From positions 52,665 to 116,664 of the forward strand of contig ONHW01000004.1 in the NCBI GenBank assembly GCA_900317745.1: a stretch of DNA of 64,000 nt, written 5' to 3'. The notes beneath the pieces were generated by a model, which saw only the letters and a program-made list of their open reading frames with translations, made no database searches and was not told the origin of the DNA. Positions within the stretch are counted from its first letter, which is position 1, and the number at the start of each line of letters is the position of its first letter. Of the stretch, positions 15,180-52,819 are shown in pieces. Origin of the DNA: an uncultured Bacteroidales bacterium. Its GTDB lineage: Bacteria; Bacteroidota; Bacteroidia; Bacteroidales; Paludibacteraceae. The position numbers and the translations under genes were made by a program.

Positions 15180-15600
15180 AGCAGAGGTAGGGGTGGCGGA
15201 TATGAGGAAACCCGGCGTTGAAAGCGCCGGACACAGGACACCAAACTCGGCGGAATACCGCCGAGAACAGAACACCGCTGCGCTAAACTCGCTCATGAAA
15301 TCGCGAGCACATGACACCACGCGTTCGGCAGATAGGCGCTACTGATGCCGCTTGGCGGCATGGGGCGCACTGGCGCGTTCGGCAAGGCGGTCGCATCAGA
15401 TGGCGCTTTGCGCCATAAAGGCGACGCCTGCCTCCGCTCTCCCCACCGCAACCTGCGGTTACGTCGGGGACCCCAAGGGCGGCGGAACAGCGCCGAGCGC
15501 TAAACGACTGACCAAAAATCCGGCGTTGAAAGCGCCGGACACAGGACACTAAACTCGGCGGAATACCGCCGAGAACAGAACACCGCTGCGCTTAACTTGG
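15180..15600. repeat. Palindrome-rich non-coding tract with a duplicated 78-bp unit
   Basis: The gene-free stretch 14936-15662 holds no supported gene, but from 15180 on it is packed with hairpins. A 78-bp unit occurs at 15212-15289 and 15520-15597 with two mismatches. It contains CCGGCG...CGCCGG and CTCGGCGG-AATA-CCGCCGAG, and ends with ACCGCTGCGCT. Between the copies are ATGCCGC-TTG-GCGGCAT, ATGGCGC-TTT-GCGCCAT and ACCGCA-ACC-TGCGGT. A shorter relative lies at 50855-50895. The arrangement resembles clustered REP/BIME elements. Apparent reading frames here follow from the G+C-rich repeats. Confidence 0.8.
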
Positions 15601-34308: not shown

Positions 34309-35415
34309 ATGAAAAATTGTATGAAAAATCTGTATCTCAGAAACCTACTGCCAGCCATGGCGTTGGTGTCGTTGCTGACCGGCTGTGTCAAGATGCCGGA
34401 AGAGCAACACACGAGTTATGAAACGATCACCCTCACCCGTCAGACCGTCACCGCTCCACTCACATGGAGTGCCGCTATTCGCGGTACGGGCGATGTGTCG
34501 ATCGTCTCGCGATGCACCGGCACGCTCAACCGCATCCTTGTCAAGGACGGACAACGTGTCAAGAACGGCGACGTGCTCTTCCTCATCGACAGCCGTAGCG
34601 CCCAAAACGCACTCGTGCATGCACAGGCTGACCTCCAGACCGCCATCGCCAACCGAGACAATGCACAACTTGAGGCGGAGAGTAACAAGGAACTGGCTGA
34701 ACAAGGCATAATCAGCGATTATCTTCTGCGCAAGAGCCTGAACAGCCTCCAGTCTGCCGAGGCACAGGTCGCACAGGCACGTGCTGCCGTGAGAGATGCC
34801 GAACTCCGACTCGATTATTGTACTGTCAAAAGCCCCGTGGACGGATTGATCGGCAATGTGGCACCGCACGTTGGCGACGTGATATCTGAAGGTATGGTAC
34901 TCACGCGCGTAGCAGGCGTAAGCGAGATGGAGGTGAGTTTCTCGCTTACCGAGAGCCAGATACATGCGATTGTCAGCGAGTTAGGTTCGCTCGAGCAAGT
35001 CATCAAGATTGCGCCGCCGCTCACACTGCGCTTCAAGGACGGTACGGAGTATTCCGAGAAAGGACGAATAACCAGTTTCTCAGGTATGGTTGACCAGCGT
35101 ACGGGTAGCGTAACCTGCTATGTCACCTTCCCCAACCCCAAAGGAGAACTGTTCTCGGGTATGCAAGGTACCATCGTTATGCCCATCGAGTGGGAGGATG
35201 TGATGCTCGTGCCGCTTACAGCGATCGTGCGTATTCAGGACAAAGCATTGGTCTATAAGGTAGGCGCGGACAGCCTGGCTACCAGTGCTATAGTCGAGAT
35301 TGAGGAACTGGGAGACGGCGAACGTGCCGCAATACTATCTGGCGCTGAAGTGGGCGAGACTATCGTTGCCAAAGGGGCTGCTAATGTACATGATAACGAC
35401 CGCGTAATTTGGTAA
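34309..35415 (+). CDS. RND efflux periplasmic adaptor lipoprotein (AcrA/MexA-type)
   Basis: A 368-residue membrane-fusion protein with lipobox LLTGC (Cys 26). The order is as in AcrA: a beta-barrel strand (GTGDVSIVSRCTGTLNRILVKDGQRVKNGDVLFLID), an alpha-helical hairpin (about residues 100-170, ALVHAQADLQTAIANRDNAQLEAES...), the second lipoyl half (YCTVKSPVDGLIGN) and a membrane-proximal barrel. It bridges the inner-membrane RND pump and the outer-membrane channel encoded just downstream, so this is the first gene of a classical tripartite efflux operon. Two in-frame ATGs at 34309 and 34321 are both possible starts. Confidence 0.92.
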   Translation: MKNCMKNLYLRNLLPAMALVSLLTGCVKMPEEQHTSYETITLTRQTVTAPLTWSAAIRGTGDVSIVSRCTGTLNRILVKDGQRVKNGDVLFLIDSRSAQNALVHAQADLQTAIANRDNAQLEAESNKELAEQGIISDYLLRKSLNSLQSAEAQVAQARAAVRDAELRLDYCTVKSPVDGLIGNVAPHVGDVISEGMVLTRVAGVSEMEVSFSLTESQIHAIVSELGSLEQVIKIAPPLTLRFKDGTEYSEKGRITSFSGMVDQRTGSVTCYVTFPNPKGELFSGMQGTIVMPIEWEDVMLVPLTAIVRIQDKALVYKVGADSLATSAIVEIEELGDGERAAILSGAEVGETIVAKGAANVHDNDRVIW

Positions 35416-35419
35416 TACT

Positions 35420-38400
35420 ATGGCTAAAGGAAACATTTTCGTAGATCGTAAAGTGATGGCAGTCTGTATCTCACTGCTCATCGCTTTGATTGGCTTTATT
35501 TGCCTGAAGACTTTACCTATTGAGCAGTACCCCGATATAGCACCGCCGACGGTGATGATCACCACATCATACTCCGGCGCCGATGCCAATACGGTTATGA
35601 AATCTGTCGTGATGCCTATCGAGGAGGCGGTCAACGGTGTGGAGAACATGGCGTACATGACCTCCGAGGCGTCCGCTACCGGTGATGTGAGTATCAATGT
35701 CTATTTCAAGCAGGGCACTGATCCCGATATGGCGGCGGTCAACGTACAGAACCGCGTGTCGGCTGCATTGGGACTGCTTCCACAAGAGGTAACGCGCGTC
35801 GGCGTGAAAGTGGAGAAAAGGCAAAACAATATCCTGCAGATCGCTGCTCTCGTCAGCAGAGATGGTAAGTTTGACAACGATTTTATTGCCAACTACATCG
35901 ATATCAACGTTAAACCGCGCTTGCTACGAGTCACTGGAGTGGGAGCGGTGCAGAACTTGGGAAATACCTATTCGCTACGTATATGGATGAAACCTGACGT
36001 CATGGCGCAATACGGATTGATGCCCGATGATATCTTTGCCGCTATCGGCAACCAGAACATGGTGGCGGCCACAGGATCGCTCGGAGAACAGAGCGGAAAC
36101 ACCTACCAGTATAACCTCGAGTACAAAGGACGATTGCAGTCTATCGAGGAGTTTGAGTCCATCGTTCTGCGTAGCGCAGGAGGAAACGTGCTGCACCTGC
36201 GAGATGTGGCGGATGTGGAACTGGGAGCACTCAGTTACAGCTTCTCTTCACGCGTGGACGGACAGCCCGGGGTGGCGTTTATCATCAACCAGGCACCGGG
36301 TGCCAACGCCACGCAGGTCAATGCCTCTATCAACGAGTTGTACGAACAACTCAAGCGAACCATGCCTGCAGGATTGGAGTTCACCATCCTACAGACCAGC
36401 GACGATTTCCTTTACGCTGCTATACATAATGTCGTTGAGACGCTCATCATCGCCATCCTCTTGGTCATACTGGTCGTATATTTCTTCCTGCAAGACTTCA
36501 AGGCTACCCTTATACCGTCTATCTCGATCATCGTCTCACTACTCGGCACGTTTGCGGTGGTTAAGGTCGCTGGGTTCTCCCTGAACATCCTTACGCTCTT
36601 TGCGCTCGTCCTCGCTATCGGTACCGTCGTCGATGACGCAATAGTCGTCGTCGAGGCGGTCATGGCGAAGATGGAGAGCGGATACACCTCGGCTTACCAG
36701 GCAACCAAAGATGCAATGAGCGAAGTCACCGTTGCCGTCATCAGTTGTACACTCGTGTTCATGGCGGTGTTCATACCCGTCACGTTCATGCCGGGAACCA
36801 GCGGCACGTTCTTCACACAGTTCGGTATAACCATCGCATCGTCCGTCGGACTGAGTTGTATATCAGCCCTTACACTCTGTCCCGCTCTTACTGCCGTAAT
36901 GTTCCGACCGAAAAACGAAGATCCGAACAGCAAAAAATCTTTCAGCCAATATGTCAAACAGGCGTACGAAGCTGGATACAATGCTATTCTCGGTAAGTAC
37001 AAGAACGGCGTTGCCAAGTTCCTGCAAAAACCCCGACGCGCATGGCTATGGCTCTTCGCAGCCGTCATCGCTATGGTCTTCGCAATGCGAGCACTGCCTG
37101 CTGGACTCGTGCCGCAGGAGGACCAGGGCGTGATCTTGGTCGATGTTACCGCACCCGCCGGATCACCGCTCGTCGAAACCGACAAGATAATGGCGCAGGT
37201 CGAGGAACATGTGCTGCGACTCGAGGAGGTCGAGAGTTACGCCAAGATATCCGGATTCGGATTGCTCTCCGGTACAGGAGTAAGTTACGGTACACTCGTC
37301 GTACGACTCAAACCCTGGGACCAACGAGAGGGACTCGAACACTACATCGACATGGTCATGGCTAAGTTGTATTACTCCTGCGAGGATATCAAAGATGCAC
37401 AGATCATCCCCTTCCAGATGCCGCAGATCCCGGGATATGGCAATAGTAACGCTATCGATCTGCAGATGGAAGATCTGCAAGGCGGCGATATGTCGAAGTT
37501 CAACGAGGTCGTCAATACCTTCCTTGCCGAACTGCAGAAGCACCCGGAGGTGCAGATGGCAATGTCGCTCTACTCCGAGTCTTTCCCCAAATATAAGGTG
37601 GACGTCAACGCTACACAATGCGACCGGGCAGGTATATCGCCCGACGTCGTGCTTAACACACTCGGAGCCTACTGCGGTAGTGCGTATGTCAGCAACTTCA
37701 ACCAGTACGGCAAGGTCTATCGTGTGATGGCTGGAGCCGCACCCGAATATCGCCTCGACCCGAATTCTCTGAACAATATCTTTGTGCGCGTAGGGGATGA
37801 GATGGCTCCCATAGCACAGTTCGTGACTCTCACACCTTCCGTCGGATCGGCTACCCAGAAGCGCTTCAACCTCTATCAGTCCATCGCATGCTCTGTTCAG
37901 CCTAACGCCGGATTTAGCGAAGGCGATGTACAACGCGTTATCGCCGAGGTCGCCAAGGAGCATCTGCCCACCGGTTATAGTTACGAATACGGAGGCATGA
38001 GCCGTGAGCTGGAAGCAAACAGCAAATCGAATCTCACCGGATTGATCTATCTCGTCTGTGTATTGCTCATCTATATGATCCTTGCGTCACTCTACGAGTC
38101 GTTCTTCATTCCGCTTGCTGTCCTGCTCTCAGTGCCTTTCGGACTGATGGGAGCGTTCGCTCTGTCATGGCTATGCGGACAGCAGAATAATATCTACCTC
38201 CAGACCGGCGTGATCATGCTCATCGGATTGCTTGCCAAAACGGCTATCCTCATCACCGAGTTCGCCGTCGAGAAACGCAAACAAGGCATGCCGATCATTC
38301 AGGCTGCTCTCAGCGCATGTGAGGACCGACTACGTCCTATCCTCATGACCGTCGTCACGATGATCGCAGGTATGATCCCGCTTATCATCGAGGGCGGTGC

Positions 38401-39931
38401 GGGTGCCAACGGCAACCGGGCACTGGCTATCGGCGTCACAGGAGGTATGGCGGTCGGCACACTCGCACTCGTCTTCGTCGTTCCGGCGTTCTATATCATC
38501 TTCCAATCACTGCACGAACGTTTCCAAGGCAACAACGATCAACCCTCTGTCAGCGCCGGCGGTCTGTCAGGCGAAGCCGGTCTGTCAGCGTTAGCGGTCT
38601 GCATTGTAGCACTCTCCCTCTCCTCCTGCGGCGTGTTCAAGCATTATACACCTGCCGAACAACCCGAACAGGATAGTCTGGTCACTGCCGTTAGTAATGC
38701 CGGGTGGAAAACGTACATCGAAGACCCCGTTCTGCGTAACCTCATCGACACGGCTCTCGCCAACAACGTCGATTATCGCACACGACAACTCGCCGTACAA
38801 GAGGCAGACGCACAACTACGTGCGGCTAAACTCGGCTTCCTGCCAACTCTCGCCATCAGCACCGCTAACATCGGCGTCTCAGGCACAGTCACACCGGGAA
38901 GCGGCGCGTCACCTGCCATGCTCAGTTATCAGGTGCCGCTCGCACTCAACTGGGGTGGAGAAGGATTCGGTACAATCACTAACCGCAAACGACAGGCTCA
39001 GGTCCTACGCGAACAGGCGGAAGATAACCGTGCCGCAGCACACGCTAACCTCGTCGCTACGGTCGCAAGACTTTATACGCAACTCCAACTGCTCGACTTC
39101 GAGGCACAGATCATCGATTCTACAGAAATGATCTGGCAACAGGTCCTTGAGATACAACGCGTACTCGTCAAGAACGGACAGGCATACTCGCCATCCGTCG
39201 GACAGATGGAAGCATCGCTCATCAATGTACGTATCCAACGCAAACAACTCCTTCAGCAGATACACGCGCTCGAACTCACACTATGTCAACTGCTCAACCA
39301 AGAACCGCACAACATTGCACGCTCTCCTTGGGTCAGTTATACGTTCGATACATGGACCATCAACCCCATACCCGCTGCACAACTCAGCAACCGAGCCGAT
39401 GTGCGGGCAGCCGAACGAAACGTAGCCGCTGCGTTCTATCAGACAAACATCGCTAAAGCCGCTTTCTGCCCCGCACTGTCGCTATCCGGACTCATCGGAT
39501 GGACGAACAACGGAGGCATAGTCGCTAACCCCGGACAACTGCTCATGAATGCCGTCCTCGGACTCGCACAACCGATCTTCGCAGGTGGCAAACTCAAGGC
39601 TAACCTCCAGATCGCCAGACTGCAACAGCAGGAAGCCGCTAACCGATACGTGCAGACTATGCTCCGAGCCGGTAGCGAGGTCAACGATGCAATCTTCCGA
39701 TGCCGCAATGCACAGGAACAGGGCGAACTCTACCAACGTATGCTCTCTACACAACAGGAAGCGTATGACGGTACGTGCGAACTGATGAAGAAAGGTAAGG
39801 CGTCCTACCTCGAGGTTCTCACCGCACAGGAGAACCTCCTCAAAGCACAACTCGCCGACGTCACCAACCGATACAACGGACTCATCAGCCTCATCGACCT
39901 CTATGTCGCACTCGGCGGTGCCACTAACTAA
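35420..39931 (+). CDS. RND pump fused in frame to its outer-membrane factor (AcrB-OprM fusion)
   Basis: A single 1,503-residue reading frame. Residues 1-1035 are an AcrB-type pump: twelve membrane helices, two large periplasmic loops, and the proton-relay pair D405-D406 in GTVVDDAIVVVE. Residues 1056-1503 are a TolC/OprM-type outer-membrane factor with its own signal-like segment and lipobox (LSLSSC, Cys 1070), two OEP repeats and a typical ending. Normally these are separate genes. The joint (about 1042-1055, SVSAGGLSGEAGLS) is encoded by a repeat identical over 43 bp to one in the giant secreted gene. Apparently it removed the pump's stop and the channel's start. Signal processing inside the fusion could restore two proteins; this is untested. 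Confidence 0.88.
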   Translation: MAKGNIFVDRKVMAVCISLLIALIGFICLKTLPIEQYPDIAPPTVMITTSYSGADANTVMKSVVMPIEEAVNGVENMAYMTSEASATGDVSINVYFKQGTDPDMAAVNVQNRVSAALGLLPQEVTRVGVKVEKRQNNILQIAALVSRDGKFDNDFIANYIDINVKPRLLRVTGVGAVQNLGNTYSLRIWMKPDVMAQYGLMPDDIFAAIGNQNMVAATGSLGEQSGNTYQYNLEYKGRLQSIEEFESIVLRSAGGNVLHLRDVADVELGALSYSFSSRVDGQPGVAFIINQAPGANATQVNASINELYEQLKRTMPAGLEFTILQTSDDFLYAAIHNVVETLIIAILLVILVVYFFLQDFKATLIPSISIIVSLLGTFAVVKVAGFSLNILTLFALVLAIGTVVDDAIVVVEAVMAKMESGYTSAYQATKDAMSEVTVAVISCTLVFMAVFIPVTFMPGTSGTFFTQFGITIASSVGLSCISALTLCPALTAVMFRPKNEDPNSKKSFSQYVKQAYEAGYNAILGKYKNGVAKFLQKPRRAWLWLFAAVIAMVFAMRALPAGLVPQEDQGVILVDVTAPAGSPLVETDKIMAQVEEHVLRLEEVESYAKISGFGLLSGTGVSYGTLVVRLKPWDQREGLEHYIDMVMAKLYYSCEDIKDAQIIPFQMPQIPGYGNSNAIDLQMEDLQGGDMSKFNEVVNTFLAELQKHPEVQMAMSLYSESFPKYKVDVNATQCDRAGISPDVVLNTLGAYCGSAYVSNFNQYGKVYRVMAGAAPEYRLDPNSLNNIFVRVGDEMAPIAQFVTLTPSVGSATQKRFNLYQSIACSVQPNAGFSEGDVQRVIAEVAKEHLPTGYSYEYGGMSRELEANSKSNLTGLIYLVCVLLIYMILASLYESFFIPLAVLLSVPFGLMGAFALSWLCGQQNNIYLQTGVIMLIGLLAKTAILITEFAVEKRKQGMPIIQAALSACEDRLRPILMTVVTMIAGMIPLIIEGGAGANGNRALAIGVTGGMAVGTLALVFVVPAFYIIFQSLHERFQGNNDQPSVSAGGLSGEAGLSALAVCIVALSLSSCGVFKHYTPAEQPEQDSLVTAVSNAGWKTYIEDPVLRNLIDTALANNVDYRTRQLAVQEADAQLRAAKLGFLPTLAISTANIGVSGTVTPGSGASPAMLSYQVPLALNWGGEGFGTITNRKRQAQVLREQAEDNRAAAHANLVATVARLYTQLQLLDFEAQIIDSTEMIWQQVLEIQRVLVKNGQAYSPSVGQMEASLINVRIQRKQLLQQIHALELTLCQLLNQEPHNIARSPWVSYTFDTWTINPIPAAQLSNRADVRAAERNVAAAFYQTNIAKAAFCPALSLSGLIGWTNNGGIVANPGQLLMNAVLGLAQPIFAGGKLKANLQIARLQQQEAANRYVQTMLRAGSEVNDAIFRCRNAQEQGELYQRMLSTQQEAYDGTCELMKKGKASYLEVLTAQENLLKAQLADVTNRYNGLISLIDLYVALGGATN
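38544..38586 (+). repeat. Coding repeat (GGTCTGTC class) at the RND-OMF junction
   Basis: A 43-bp sequence (beginning CCTCTGTCAGCGCCGGCGG) identical to 49654-49696. It is in frame and encodes SVSAGGLSGEAGLS. Confidence 0.9.
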
Positions 39932-49100: not shown

Positions 49101-50150
49101 CAGGGCTTCCGTGACGGAGATATAGTTAAGTCCGCTGCCGACAGACGCTTTGCACAGTTCCTGCTCAACGATACCGAGAGCCGCTGGAGCGGTACGCTCA
49201 CTACGCTCGATCACCGACGGATGTACAACGTACGCGCCTCGCAGGCGTTCACGCTTAACATCGAGGGTAAGGCACTCACCGATGCACAACGTACCGTCAC
49301 ACTCAACCGTGGTTGGAACAGTCTCGCTTTCCTGTATAGCGAACCGCAGAACGTGCGTGACGCCTTGGCGGACTATTACGATCATGCTACCGTTGGCGAT
49401 CTCATCAAGTCCAAGACGCAGTTCGCTGTCTTCACCGAGAACAAACGTTGGGAAGGCTCGCTCAACACGATGCGACCCGGTCAGGGCTATCTGCTCTACC
49501 GTCAAGCACAGGGTGCTGTCACTGTCCGTTTCATCAACCCCTCGCCTAACAGCGCTCAACACTCTACACTCAGCACTCAGCCCTCAACCCTCAGCGCTCC
49601 CGAGTTCTCCAACCCGAACGCTACCGCCAACATGACCATCATCGCCACGCTCGCCTCTGTCAGCGCCGGCGGTCTGTCAGGCGAAGCCGGTCTGTCTTCT
49701 GTCAGCGCCAGCGGTCTGTCTTCTATCTTCGTTTACGCTGCAGGCGAACTGGTCGGTGTCGCATCTCCGATATCCGTTTCTGAACCGCTCAACACTCAAC
49801 ACTCAACACTCAACTCATCAGGGAACGCCTTGTACTTCCTCACCATCCAGTCCGACCAAATCGGTGCACCGCTCACGTTCCGCACCGCCGAAGGCCAATG
49901 GCTCAACGTACAAATAAATAACCCATACAGCGAAGCAGATCGTTCGACCGAAGGGAGAAAAGAAATCGTAAATAACCCTGATGCTCACTACGGCACGCTC
50001 GAGTCTCCGGTACTTCTCACTCCTTCTCTGAATGGGCAGAGTGGGGCAGATGCGGCTGTTGACGTGTACAAACTCCTTGACAACGGTCATGTCGTAATCA
50101 TCCGCAATGGCGAGCGTTACGACGTCACCGGCCTTCGCCTTACCAGGTAA
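40134..50150 (+). CDS. Giant secreted multidomain protein (3,338 residues) with LamG-like domains
   Basis: Signal peptide after MKNLYLSGSRLLTVVLIGLICVIGQQMYA. Visible modules: a carboxypeptidase-regulatory-like sandwich near residues 846-900 (GEIRGSILMTDNSGVAGVEVALQT), LamG/concanavalin-like domains near 2237-2400 and 2461-2600 (SFTVDMLVRP..., WHHIAIVINRTYNTLSVYLDT), and two related Trp-rich modules near 2966 and 3050 (GWNWLSWNLLP, GWNSLAFLYSEP). Region 49551-49817 contains three in-frame repeats, two of CTCAACACT type and one of GGTCTGTC type. The protein ends with the short NGHVVIIRNGERYDVTG...LTR tail shared with other exported proteins here. Probably a surface adhesin or glycan-binding protein. 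Confidence 0.82.
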   Translation: MKNLYLSGSRLLTVVLIGLICVIGQQMYANDYLERQKHYMVYSAGADHIHFKVPVWAYGRAYDYYLDGATRIFYVKNGNETLIANVQSDRYDENEKDTDKGTAYFRLEHGQGSATVTSMANGAPYYVSDNGAWTPQLIVVQREDDDCPQVTFLEFDWYPPASLFGKGNITIKMDVRINRSKSGEEKYRYTWDFGLFDPGNTLMTPQLFAPFLYALNENGVTGYGNAGVPYALYYEPKNYTTSLSSNIISLGNSERSGNLFVMTSDTVIEQFSANFNVKYNAAGDTVIQKSTAVDIPPYHRIYDFQATEEQDQTGTYTGNNKLEWTIRNPQLKDLVDGDYFELQRALKSDFSDAQTLSVIPMRRMDDNGTYSYTDMSRETWTGNATIHSDTVPEDKVGLTVKTYLLRTADNKPLCTVDVDFFTNMVLQPAVPVYYRVRRASSAVWGWEGHEFMRSIVMNKHNFLAPLAATQAPYTLDADYANNHKVYFRIKLDNAEVSQFTVPAKEEFNLSYSNVKQPVEDNQQVLLTVVNPYPQTQITVADIDNGTITTPTRTLNEGTHTFSVQSGSRVTLKYPSYTVGSSVYKWNNESFDVFHSSTLTINKEEGPWHTSGSCSYNADGPTLEVLQEAFNRVYNHLRDSLYAEVSANIIAAGSQLGRCMWDQSARLTLLRTAEETGQTLELIIPSDSIRRQADGSWIASFTDVPVSACTHYRYAARIDQSTSDLRLYNPDEQLKPVPITGPELYYDEGATIDRFTATRGLTTDYLKQGVLLNWTASSANVDEYCLLRLPKNSDKVPDTLYTGIANTYLDRTAVPEVHYEYTVTAIYQCNSKRTANSATTEGWRTPFGEIRGSILMTDNSGVAGVEVALQTNGTTVRSVITKADGVFRFDSLTYDFLNGTDYAIVPTSQYGRFGFNYTSTPSATVRLTTQNPLATDINFQSTNPVRLTGRVLYKGTTIPVAGAMFLLNGDTLRRGSAPLTTGIDGSFELTLIERQPYSLQVFKQGHTFEGNGVLEVQTGSSIFALDKALDGVRFYDMTKVRLIGRVAGGNDQRDLPEGFGLGTNNLGDNLQLVLQLEGDNTAQLVHDPDDLTRDTMMQQIGNTGTLFAKKRITIHPDPQTGEYAVDLFPVKYKVVQATATGYATLFAPGQGSETFDLTTAPLDTIDAVYFAEKDSVLISHLRNGEVISNTSIPVGAPRGTLRDRQSVTCNAIYDRIYHNPVQVHLTQLVYGMPQQGLGEPTMQVSTMTNDGELVPLYTPTVHSNGNVDVHYLLGYPLFLNKHNYEFTAAAYEDYYYNNNVTLGARDRVPVRGGKVLIHNGLQNTGRSITYDLDRQGKCRFVLPVDNLDVTYASNMALRTVTAALEQEGNVVETEVIRGFITGEKVLENSLRSTESNVLLLDVVRNPGGTGSNSWIESGTTYHYSYKEGYKWEAGINLNLKWGVDISADVGILTGAPGNYTGSTYSTSRQLEVPLPFTHKHDWGYQYDYTFTTTERISTASTGSVYNYGGLADASAGVGYGVGGMADVFVGTTVSMLSGKAKTIALINDSVYQLKQPAFKAGTMRVIADGVDANGKHYYLVNAEKVVMGSQLNHTFVYSQFYILYTVMPRLAMERQNLLMHFPSEEAAQQAADRLKRPVYWLTDTSHVSMQDTMPKNYYKMVFPTDNTESYPDEVASLDVMLTQWSNILVQNEKTKVIARMMGRYEGTYSVSFGNVYTRTDNYTAIAGENAVPDGSILAFEGINSGSQIGASLIKNHQNIWGFISGMFSSKIGKTAEEALADFYKTRDVVNANGDVIKERTDQPKGFEELGVKDNKSKLTYTFTPIFNFNADLRRSNDKTLHKSCGFSLVPDAYGDITVSVYRAPIDKVWGDDSNAIRSALGITSHNDSLLYGSYVFITEAGSTFCPYEGETRTAFYNPGTLLNNATVPIAEPEITANTYEITHVQPDQPAYLRVELKNNGQQGEGRLSDFRNFELGMVNASNADGLEVYADGNSLAAPIPVLILPGQTVYKTLKIMRGTVDDYNDLKLRLYVASCPKNFSDMNFSVHYMPQSSPVQITSPGQNWVMNTLSPHDSAGYYLPIEIGGFNLNQKNFDHIEFQYKLNTQSDDMWVTLCSFYAEDSLYNAASGNKALIRNGRIEPFRFYGDRDPVEQRYDLRAVSFCRYGSGFVSKASPVITGVKDTRPPRVFGEPEPVNAILGVGDNLLLRFNESIAGNYLDADNNFQIKGVTNATGITAATSLHFDGTVTSAAVSSINRSLSNQSFTVDMLVRPAQGKQAVFFSHSDADNVFEFGMNADRQLYAKFADDYVLTSRKLDPVLDFTRVCVVYDRTQHTVRFYAGTGDVTDPDNTHLDEFIRHDVSAPLCFGQGMDGNMLEARLWVKALTQEEIAATHMRYLTGYEQELLAYYRMNEGNGNTVTDRANGATLTLTGTSWIVPQGISLALRPAQPVPLNANLLSRSGAYDATYMFWFRATSDGHLFSAGRIDNAERKSGLLIAVDNGNLAMHIADTLLAGPTVNDNAWHHIAIVINRTYNTLSVYLDTELITVGQALALPVVSGDMFFGGAGMNGNIDEFALFEQALPKALIEQFAAHAPVGDEMGLMAYLPFQQQWRNPNGVLELVFSPNDQRIFRDAAGNIVNKVVPLILTDQQSLPVEQMADRTNHAPISNLGELTNLNFDWAFNNDELLIHLRMPDREINKQSVFITVRDVEDLNGNPMPSPVMWTAYVDRNTLKWGERELTINAAYGEQNDAYNRRDIKIINNSGKRHQYTIESLPEWLSVDRSYGSLQPTEDKTVTFTFDIERSVGVYSDLVYLTDENGLSEPLRVEMTVEAECPWQDMQVNQTKFDQSMSMRAQIFFDDEHEGGHFDTSTDDVVAVFCDGELVGKANNTFAATSAQSYVYLTIYGNAAITNHVLAFKLWRAATGKIYNLRPSATQRYRTNTMRGVSPDEPVRLSTTAGATLPIELQQGWNWLSWNLLPATSTPNALFTAEQGFRDGDIVKSAADRRFAQFLLNDTESRWSGTLTTLDHRRMYNVRASQAFTLNIEGKALTDAQRTVTLNRGWNSLAFLYSEPQNVRDALADYYDHATVGDLIKSKTQFAVFTENKRWEGSLNTMRPGQGYLLYRQAQGAVTVRFINPSPNSAQHSTLSTQPSTLSAPEFSNPNATANMTIIATLASVSAGGLSGEAGLSSVSASGLSSIFVYAAGELVGVASPISVSEPLNTQHSTLNSSGNALYFLTIQSDQIGAPLTFRTAEGQWLNVQINNPYSEADRSTEGRKEIVNNPDAHYGTLESPVLLTPSLNGQSGADAAVDVYKLLDNGHVVIIRNGERYDVTGLRLTR
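49551..49600 (+). repeat. CTCAACACT-type coding repeat, first tract in the giant gene
   Basis: Imperfect units CTCAACACT / CTACACTCAG / CACTCAGCCCTCAACCCT encode a Ser/Thr/Gln-rich stretch (AQHSTLSTQPSTLSAP). The same unit recurs at 49786 and in the FemAB-like gene at 53670. Confidence 0.8.
49654..49730 (+). repeat. GGTCTGTC-class coding repeat in the giant gene
   Basis: The first 43 bp (49654-49696) are identical to the RND-OMF junction. A second partial unit follows (CTTCTGTCAGCGCCAGCGG...TCT). It encodes SVSAGGLSGEAGLSSVSASG and then LSS. Confidence 0.9.
49786..49817 (+). repeat. CTCAACACT-type coding repeat, second tract
   Basis: Nearly pure CTCAACACT units, 32 bp, encoding NTQHSTLNS. 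In frame within the giant secreted gene. Confidence 0.8.
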
Positions 50151-51191: not shown

Positions 51192-51563
51192 ATGAACAGA
51201 AAACTATTGATATGGATCGTGAGTTGGCTCACGGTGATCGGTCTGCATGCTGAGACGATCCGCGTTATGCGGTTTGTGCCGATAGACGGAGCAGAAAGCG
51301 AAGTGGCTGTGAACAGTTTGCAGAAAGTGGTGTTTACCCGCGACAGCGTGGTGCTCATCTCCGCATTAGACGGAGAGGCTGAGCCGGTGTACAAGTATGA
51401 CTACCGGAGCATCCGGTTCGACGAAAGCCGTTTGCCGACGGAGGTACAGGCTGCCGGCGAGGAACAACCGACGCGTGGCGAGAAGTTCATACGCGACGGA
51501 CAACTGCTGATCCGATTGGATAACCGGGTATATACAATCTGGGGGATGAGAGTGAGGGAATGA
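51192..51563 (+). CDS. Small secreted protein with the shared C-terminal tail
   Basis: A 123-residue exported protein. Signal peptide MNRKLLIWIVSWLTVIGLHAE; a short beta-rich body follows (IRVMRFVPIDGAESEVAV, VVFTRDSVVLISA, YDYRSIRFDESRLP). It ends in KFIRDGQLLIRLDNRVYTIWG followed by MRVRE. This is the same tail type as in the proteins ending at 2933, 50150 and 56344. The body is barely larger than one domain, so this may be close to a minimal carrier of the tail. Function unknown. The leader is unusually long. Confidence 0.72.
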   Translation: MNRKLLIWIVSWLTVIGLHAETIRVMRFVPIDGAESEVAVNSLQKVVFTRDSVVLISALDGEAEPVYKYDYRSIRFDESRLPTEVQAAGEEQPTRGEKFIRDGQLLIRLDNRVYTIWGMRVRE

Positions 51564-51640
51564 GAGAGTGAGGGAGTGAGAGAGTGAAGGAATGAGAGAG
51601 TGAGGGAATGAGGAAATGAGAGAGTGAGAGAATTAGAGAG
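51564..51640. repeat. GAGTGAGRGA tandem repeat before the hydrolase gene
   Basis: About eight imperfect units of GAGAGTGAGG / GAATGAG fill the spacer from just after the 51563 stop to the start of the next gene. Purine-only on the plus strand. Confidence 0.85.
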
Positions 51641-51643
51641 AAT

Positions 51644-52819
51644 ATGAAAAAGATAATGACCATAGTGCTGCTGTGTGCAGCGATAAGTGCAAGTGCGCAG
51701 ACCTACGTGTGGAAGAACGGTCATGCGCTGATTGAAGATCCGGACAGTATCACGTTTGTCAAGCCGGATATGGGTTTGCAGGTGTATGACAGCGCGAACA
51801 ACTCCTCGTATGTCGACTACAGGTTTACGTATCCGACCGTCGATCATGCGGGTAAGCCGTGTGTGATGTCGGCAGTGTTGTCGTTGCACTCCAACGAGAA
51901 AGCCAGCCGGCGTATAGGCAAGATGGCGCTGTACAACCATTATACGATTCTGCGTTCGAACGAGGCGCCGAGTGTCGGTGAGTTGATGGATCTGCAGCTT
52001 GTCGGGTTGAGCAAAGGTATGGCTGTGGTGAGTCCCGACCTCGAGGGATTTGGCGTGACGGGTGACCGTGTGCAGGCGTACTGCTTTGCGGAGGCGAATG
52101 CACGTGTGTCAATCGACGCGCTGCTGGCGGCACGCCAATGGCTGGTAGAGCAGGGATATACAGTGGGCGACTCGATCCTGAACTACGGCTATTCGCAAGG
52201 CGGACAAACAGCGATGGCGGCACTCAAGTTGTCGCAGACCGAGTACCGCGGACGAGTGCATTTCACCAAAACGATAGCCGGCGCCGGACCATATGACCTG
52301 CGGCTCACCTTCTGCAAGTTCCTCGAGTGGAAGAGGATAGGCATGCCCGGTGTGCTGCCGCTGACCATAGCCGCACTCAACGAGATGTATCACCTCGGGA
52401 TAAAGGACAAAGAGGCGTTCCTCGAGCCGCTGGCGTCGAACATGAAGAGCTGGATCGTATCGAAAAAATTCAATCAGGAAGAGTTCAAACAACTGCTGGG
52501 AACAGACAGCATAGCGAAGTTTATGCAACCGGCGTACTGCGATTCGACAACGGCAGAAATGGTGCGTGTACTCAGTTATGTGGACAGGATGCGTTTCACC
52601 GATGATTGGACGCCCGATGCCGATACCGATGTGAAAATCTATCACTCGCTCAACGACGATATAGTGGCACCCGAGAACTCGCAGATGATGTATCAGTGGC
52701 TGGTGAGCAAAGGTGTGCAGCACGCAGTGCTCGACACAACATCGCTCACAGGAACGCACCTGGATTCGGGAATGTACTTCCTGCTAAGTGCCATGACGTT
52801 CGATCTGATTGGGTGGTAA
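51644..52819 (+). CDS. Secreted alpha/beta hydrolase, lipase/esterase-like
   Basis: A 391-residue exported protein, signal peptide MKKIMTIVLLCAAISASAQ. The nucleophile elbow is GYSQGG in LNYGYSQGGQTAMAAL; the acid is probably D in YHSLNDDIV, and the catalytic His in LTGTHLDSG. The layout resembles the secretory lipase (LIP) and related peptidase/esterase families. It may release acyl or feruloyl groups from extracellular substrates, but the specificity is unclear. A purine-rich tandem repeat fills the upstream spacer. Confidence 0.8.
   Translation: MKKIMTIVLLCAAISASAQTYVWKNGHALIEDPDSITFVKPDMGLQVYDSANNSSYVDYRFTYPTVDHAGKPCVMSAVLSLHSNEKASRRIGKMALYNHYTILRSNEAPSVGELMDLQLVGLSKGMAVVSPDLEGFGVTGDRVQAYCFAEANARVSIDALLAARQWLVEQGYTVGDSILNYGYSQGGQTAMAALKLSQTEYRGRVHFTKTIAGAGPYDLRLTFCKFLEWKRIGMPGVLPLTIAALNEMYHLGIKDKEAFLEPLASNMKSWIVSKKFNQEEFKQLLGTDSIAKFMQPAYCDSTTAEMVRVLSYVDRMRFTDDWTPDADTDVKIYHSLNDDIVAPENSQMMYQWLVSKGVQHAVLDTTSLTGTHLDSGMYFLLSAMTFDLIGW

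Follow-up and report, generated by a model that had tools for sequence, protein, structure and literature searches.

Recurrent fusion of an RND pump to its outer-membrane channel in a group of rumen bacteria, with a putative internal lipoprotein signal at the joint

Introduction

Tripartite efflux systems of the MexB, AcrB or CmeB type, with OprM- or CusC-type channels, are encoded in the gene order adaptor, pump, lipoprotein-type channel. The RND pump and the channel are both trimers; AcrB has twelve helices and keeps its C-terminus in the cytoplasm, and the N-terminus of OprM lies near the outer membrane. Bacterial lipoproteins are marked by the lipobox motif. Joint synthesis of a membrane protein and an exported partner is known from the Bradyrhizobium cytochrome b–c1 polyprotein, a single chain that is cut at an internal signal by signal peptidase I.

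Within the RND superfamily, the SecD–SecF fusion mentioned in a Chem Rev article (PMC8277102) also unites partners in one chain, as the gene described here does, but both of its halves belong to the inner membrane and it has no outer-membrane half; the parts of that article at hand make no mention of a pump–channel fusion. Among the open-licence literature matches listed, there was none for a natural RND–channel fusion, for a polyprotein with an internal lipobox, or for cleavage by LspA of a helix that follows twelve others.

Here we analyze a pump–channel locus found in a window of 64,000 nucleotides (the whole stretch of DNA under study) from an uncultured Bacteroidales bacterium, whose genome (G000) comprises 2.6 Mb in 38 contigs. 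The locus shares the gene order of the tripartite systems and matches their solved members strongly, but its pump and channel form a single open frame.

Results and Discussion

A pump and a channel in one open frame

As the initial annotation had claimed, one in-frame ORF of 1,503 residues encodes an AcrB-type pump followed by an OprM-type channel, and profile matches cover both halves (Table 1). The pump half exceeds curated cut-offs (936 bits for ACR_tran; 980 bits vs 940 for TIGR00915), and its best solved relatives by sequence search are CmeB, AcrB, and MexB. The channel half exceeds the Pfam OEP cut-off in two stretches (142 bits vs 22), falls below that of NCBI TIGR01845 (171 bits vs 210) while covering profile positions 4–459 of 460, and matches the solved channels OprM (6zre, 2.1e-31) and CusC (3pik, 1.4e-30). 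Judged by sequence, both halves are ordinary: an HAE1-type pump and an OprM-type channel.

Table 1. Features of the fused locus and of the repeat arrays in the window
Feature	Position	Strand	Basis
Fused pump–channel gene, 1503 codons	35420..39931	+	open frame; ACR_tran 5-1028, TIGR01845 1064-1500
Pump half, AcrB/CmeB/MexB type, residues 1-1035	35420..38524	+	Pfam ACR_tran 936 bits
Linker and hydrophobic helix (putative internal lipoprotein signal), ending one residue before Cys 1070	38525..38626	+	
Lipobox Cys 1070 (LSSC)	38627..38629	+	Cys in 64/64 fusions; first invariant column of alignment A1
Channel half, OprM/CusC type, residues 1070-1503	38627..39928	+	phmmer
Periplasmic adaptor (RND_mfp), directly upstream of fusion	34309..35415	+	TIGR01730 209.5 bits, cut-off 94.9
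Dispersed repeat array, encodes residues 1043-1060 (SVSAGGLSGEAGLSALAV)	38544..38601	+	43 bp identical to 49654-49696; array extent
Second repeat array in window, within 3357-codon ORF	49654..49723	+	frame that of first two junction units

Fused and separate states in related genomes

The fusion protein found matches in 173 of 178 genomes of the genus. Its nearest named matches come from metagenome-assembled Paludibacteraceae and Bacteroidales, many of them ruminant-derived by title, and from several metagenome projects. We classified 98 loci, 90 picked from the genus listing and 8 from among 80 named loci; the joint is open in 64 and pump and channel are separate in 34, a split that describes a chosen sample and should not be read as a prevalence. 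In channel identity to the window, 45 of the fusions are alike (>70%) and 19 divergent. In this group of rumen bacteria, pump and outer-membrane channel are often one long protein with an internal lipoprotein cutting motif. One separate locus, L181 (G113), lacked a usable channel match; it was omitted from the start-codon, channel-tree, and linker and distance counts and kept among the 34.

At the DNA level, some part of the 261-base junction finds a match in 104 of the 178 genomes; among the matches listed, the window genome is the only full-length one, and the only others that span the linker (G020, G168, and G106) do so at 70–73% identity. In an order-wide sample of 149 genomes, a query with the joint found matches in 77, and open full-length fusions outside the genus were limited to two, G185 and G282, which retain the lipobox as GVSC and FSSC. 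Two further candidates put forward by frame length (L256 in G237 and L257 in G188; 1545 and 1527) proved to be unfused, with pump ORFs of 1070 and 1066 residues that end after the pump.

Several loci are notable for their pump halves. Those of G149 and G137 contain breaks within this half, and the G149 copy (L207, G149:C3:5719-10664) looks mosaic, with 67% identity to the window as far as residue 968, where the frame breaks, and 91% in the last pump piece. A fragment in G133 (G133:C83:1-2454) is 99% identical to window residues 1–818; its joint is not visible because the fragment is cut at the contig end.

The two states are intermingled in phylogenies of either half, both of them quick trees with a few long rows. 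On the pump-half tree (94 rows), 11 changes of the fused label are required, 10 of them forced by starred branches, against a mean of 28 for shuffled labels; the channel-half tree (95 rows) needs 8, of which 6 are forced. An AU test rejects the placing of all fusions in one clade (p 9e-65). The window's own group is largely fused (41 of 43 pump rows), and near sisters differ in state: G112 is fused and G100 separate, and the pairs G119/G038 and G047/G101 behave likewise. G100 and G038, whose loci are separate, have a channel start that overlaps the pump stop. Since 11 changes are needed on the pump tree and 8 on the channel tree, the joint has opened or closed repeatedly, with the proviso that recombination at the joint could partly account for these counts and inflate them.

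A conserved internal lipobox

The hydrophobic stretch of the window protein ends in a lipobox cysteine (LSSC, residues 1067–1070), and the position first assigned to it, Cys 1070, is correct, as SSCGVF starts at residue 1068. This lipobox is thus found at residue 1070 and not near the precursor N-terminus, where the lipoprotein criterion places it. A lipobox cysteine is present in all 64 fusions, preceded at −1 by Ser (62) or Gly (2) and at −3 by Phe, Leu or Met, and Asp occurs at +2 in none. The site was chosen in each fusion by the lipobox pattern, which is present in all 64, and an alignment built without the pattern (A1; 45 rows, from 62 fused channel halves reaching a stop) has the cysteine as its first invariant column; columns 2 and 34 are the only upstream ones to approach invariance, and linker and helix are hypervariable across the 45 relatives.

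Mean hydropathy at positions −15 to −4 is 2.55 in the window and 1.97–2.98 across the 64 fusions; the residue and hydropathy comparison also took in 30 of the 34 separate loci. Lys or Arg occurs at −25 to −16 in 61 of the 64 fusions; the window is among those without, which counts against an internal signal there. The distance from the cysteine to a conserved W of the channel has a median of 26 residues (range 25–45) in 63 fusions, G119 having been missed, compared to 37 (26–40) in 33 separate loci, so the fusions have no added periplasmic spacer. Both LspA and Lgt are encoded in the window genome.

These features lead us to favor, with some confidence, a polyprotein whose extra membrane helix would be an internal lipoprotein signal cut by LspA, because the cysteine is kept, a hydrophobic stretch precedes it, no spacer has been added, starts combining an ATG with a Shine–Dalgarno (SD)-like site are few (see below), and the two processing enzymes are encoded. 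The pump half would insert with its twelve helices and leave its C-terminus in the cytoplasm, and the channel's old lipoprotein signal would become a thirteenth helix, oriented N-in and C-out. Lgt would then lipidate Cys 1070 and LspA would cut just before it, presumably yielding an ordinary channel lipoprotein destined for the outer membrane and a pump with one extra helix. As these products would equal those of two genes, the fused and separate states could interchange in evolution. Since stop and start would no longer be needed, the linker would be left free for the turnover of dispersed repeats and other sequence.

Alternatively, the chain might stay uncut, with helix 13 serving as a signal anchor and both halves assembling as one protein that spans two membranes. 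The open joint in 64 loci agrees with this, and a 1:1 stoichiometry would fit a trimeric pump and a trimeric channel. However, only ~26 residues lie between the cysteine and the conserved W of a channel whose N-terminus belongs near the outer membrane, and an anchor has no need of a cysteine, yet it is kept in every fusion; we consider an uncut chain unlikely. The initial annotation had held that the two halves would need either internal processing or a signal anchor to reach their membranes, and the invariance of the cysteine amid a varying linker and helix lends indirect support to that view.

Start codons at the joint

The channel could also be translated separately from an internal start in the linker. 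An in-frame ATG is present in the searched stretch in 33 of the 64 fusions, and some ATG, GTG or TTG in 51. Yet only 11/64 fusions have an ATG paired with an SD-like site, compared to 23/33 separate loci (Fisher p 8e-7, without correction for kinship), and 13 fusions, the window among them, contain none of the three codons. In the window, ATG, GTG, and TTG are all absent in frame from 38516 to 38627, which bears out the earlier statement that the channel has lost its start codon and rules out an internal start at any of these codons there; elsewhere the case for such a start is weak. Separate translation of the channel is thus quite improbable as a general account, and cleavage at the internal signal remains our preferred reading.

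A dispersed coding repeat at the joint

The initial annotation also reported that 43 bp at the joint (38544–38586) recur in a giant gene, and the block is indeed exactly identical to 49654–49696 in the 3357-codon ORF, with 0 matches in 100 shuffles. The junction repeat extends past 38586 by an extra unit, TCTGTCAGCGTTAGCGGTCT, to about 38601, and repeat-derived sequence therefore encodes residues 1043–1060. Taking the start of the signal helix from our own setting of its boundary, the array would fill most of the linker and supply the first part of the putative signal helix (about residues 1055–1060). Two other repeats in the window are an 82-nt direct repeat (15208–15289 and 15516–15597, 96% identical) and a purine-rich tandem array with an 8-bp step (51540–51655).

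The repeat belongs to a family dispersed through the window genome, where the unit pattern has 85 matches compared to 1 for the reversed pattern. Within 48 stretches around unit matches we found 49 arrays, of which 33 lie inside ORFs with at least 40 residues on each side and the other 16 do not. The in-ORF arrays hold 103 unit cores, which are not independent of one another, 96 in the sense strand and 7 antisense; by frame, the sense cores divide into 65 read as ...SGLS... and 17 and 14 in the other two. The ...SGLS... frame is used wholly in 12 of the 33 arrays and mostly in 18. Stop avoidance explains part of this bias, since a stop codon interrupts 7 and 18 of the 33 arrays when they are read in the other two sense frames.

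A Pfam family scores over its cut-off in 20 of 28 host ORFs; these 20 include UvrA, UvrB, a glutamyl/glutaminyl-type tRNA synthetase, a DNA polymerase III gamma/tau type protein, an O-methyltransferase, and an AcrB-type pump. The O-methyltransferase loop that carries the array has 30 residues and is shorter, with 5–24, in 29 of the 29 relatives shown; among them, repeat DNA was flagged in L336 and L339, and L338 appears to resemble these two. In UvrA, the loop at the site of the array is unlike that of the window genome in 29 of 29 relatives shown, none of which was flagged for repeat DNA; each relative shown (L304–L333) has a different peptide there, several of low complexity. A second AcrB-type pump ORF contains an array with a 42-bp period (L282, G000:C22:2607-2752), and its ACR_tran match falls in two stretches. 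A reading of the arrays as hairpin elements was rejected, as four of them fold no better than shuffles (z-scores −0.84, −0.94, −0.93, and 0.06).

Among the other fused linkers, 63 of 63 lack a copy of the 43 bp, even allowing 8 mismatches. Motifs of repeat families are present in 12/64 fused linkers (shuffled mean 0.86 per 64) and in 0/33 separate spacers, a contrast (Fisher p 0.007) uncorrected for kinship, for spacer length, and for the need of separate spacers to hold a stop. Because of this distribution, dispersed repeats may help to keep a joint open, although 52 of the 64 fused linkers have no such motif. The notion of each linker as a dispersed repeat holds only in part. The motif in the linkers of G052, G117, G054, and G018 has 38, 14, 9, and 16 matches in the respective genomes, linker copy included, compared to 0 for the control. 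The one shared by G021, G013, G129, G111, and G137 has 1, 6, 1, 1, and 2, again with the linker copy, and is therefore dispersed at most in G013. A variant pattern of the window's own family matches in 8 of 9 genomes, with none in G119; against the control, its counts are 12 vs 3 in G019, 11 vs 1 in G015, and 2 vs 1 in G037. The joint is a place where short repeats settle without breaking the gene.

This evidence bears on the original proposal that insertion of the 43-bp repeat fused two adjacent genes in the window's lineage. The repeat does lie exactly at the joint, and the motifs are confined to fused linkers; however, the window belongs to a group that is mostly fused, and most fused linkers carry no motif. 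Comparison with related genomes had been set beforehand as the test of this proposal, and it revealed the same fusion without the repeat, so that the proposal is not upheld and we regard it as very improbable. An assembly or frameshift artefact is scarcely credible, because 63 other loci have an open joint and the named matches stem from several metagenome projects, even though the window genome is in 38 contigs and two relatives have breaks in the pump half.

Short dispersed repeats that lie in frame inside unrelated genes have been described as Rickettsia palindromic elements (PMC10969869), which are the nearest in-frame repeats that we found. The window family resembles them in being dispersed and in residing within unrelated coding genes; it differs in consisting of arrays of short units, in its lack of unusual folding, in its mixed frames, and in its occurrence in Bacteroidales. 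No report of the family appeared among the open-licence literature matches listed.

Implications

Overall, our results suggest, at about even confidence, that pump and channel in a Bacteroidales lineage have alternated repeatedly between one gene and two, with an internal LspA site as the means of cutting the polyprotein, and that the internal signal helix of some genomes has incorporated a dispersed coding repeat. The proposed processing resembles that of the Bradyrhizobium cytochrome b–c1 polyprotein in that one chain with an internal signal would be cut, but it would involve LspA instead of signal peptidase I, and the proteins are unrelated. The repeat family provides a case beyond Rickettsia of dispersed repeats in core genes, with a strong bias in both strand (sense) and frame. 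If cleavage does occur, the fusion would supply two membranes from one polyprotein by way of the lipoprotein pathway, LspA would be able to act on a helix deep within a polytopic protein, and the lineage would offer many natural replicates in which the fused and separate states can be compared.
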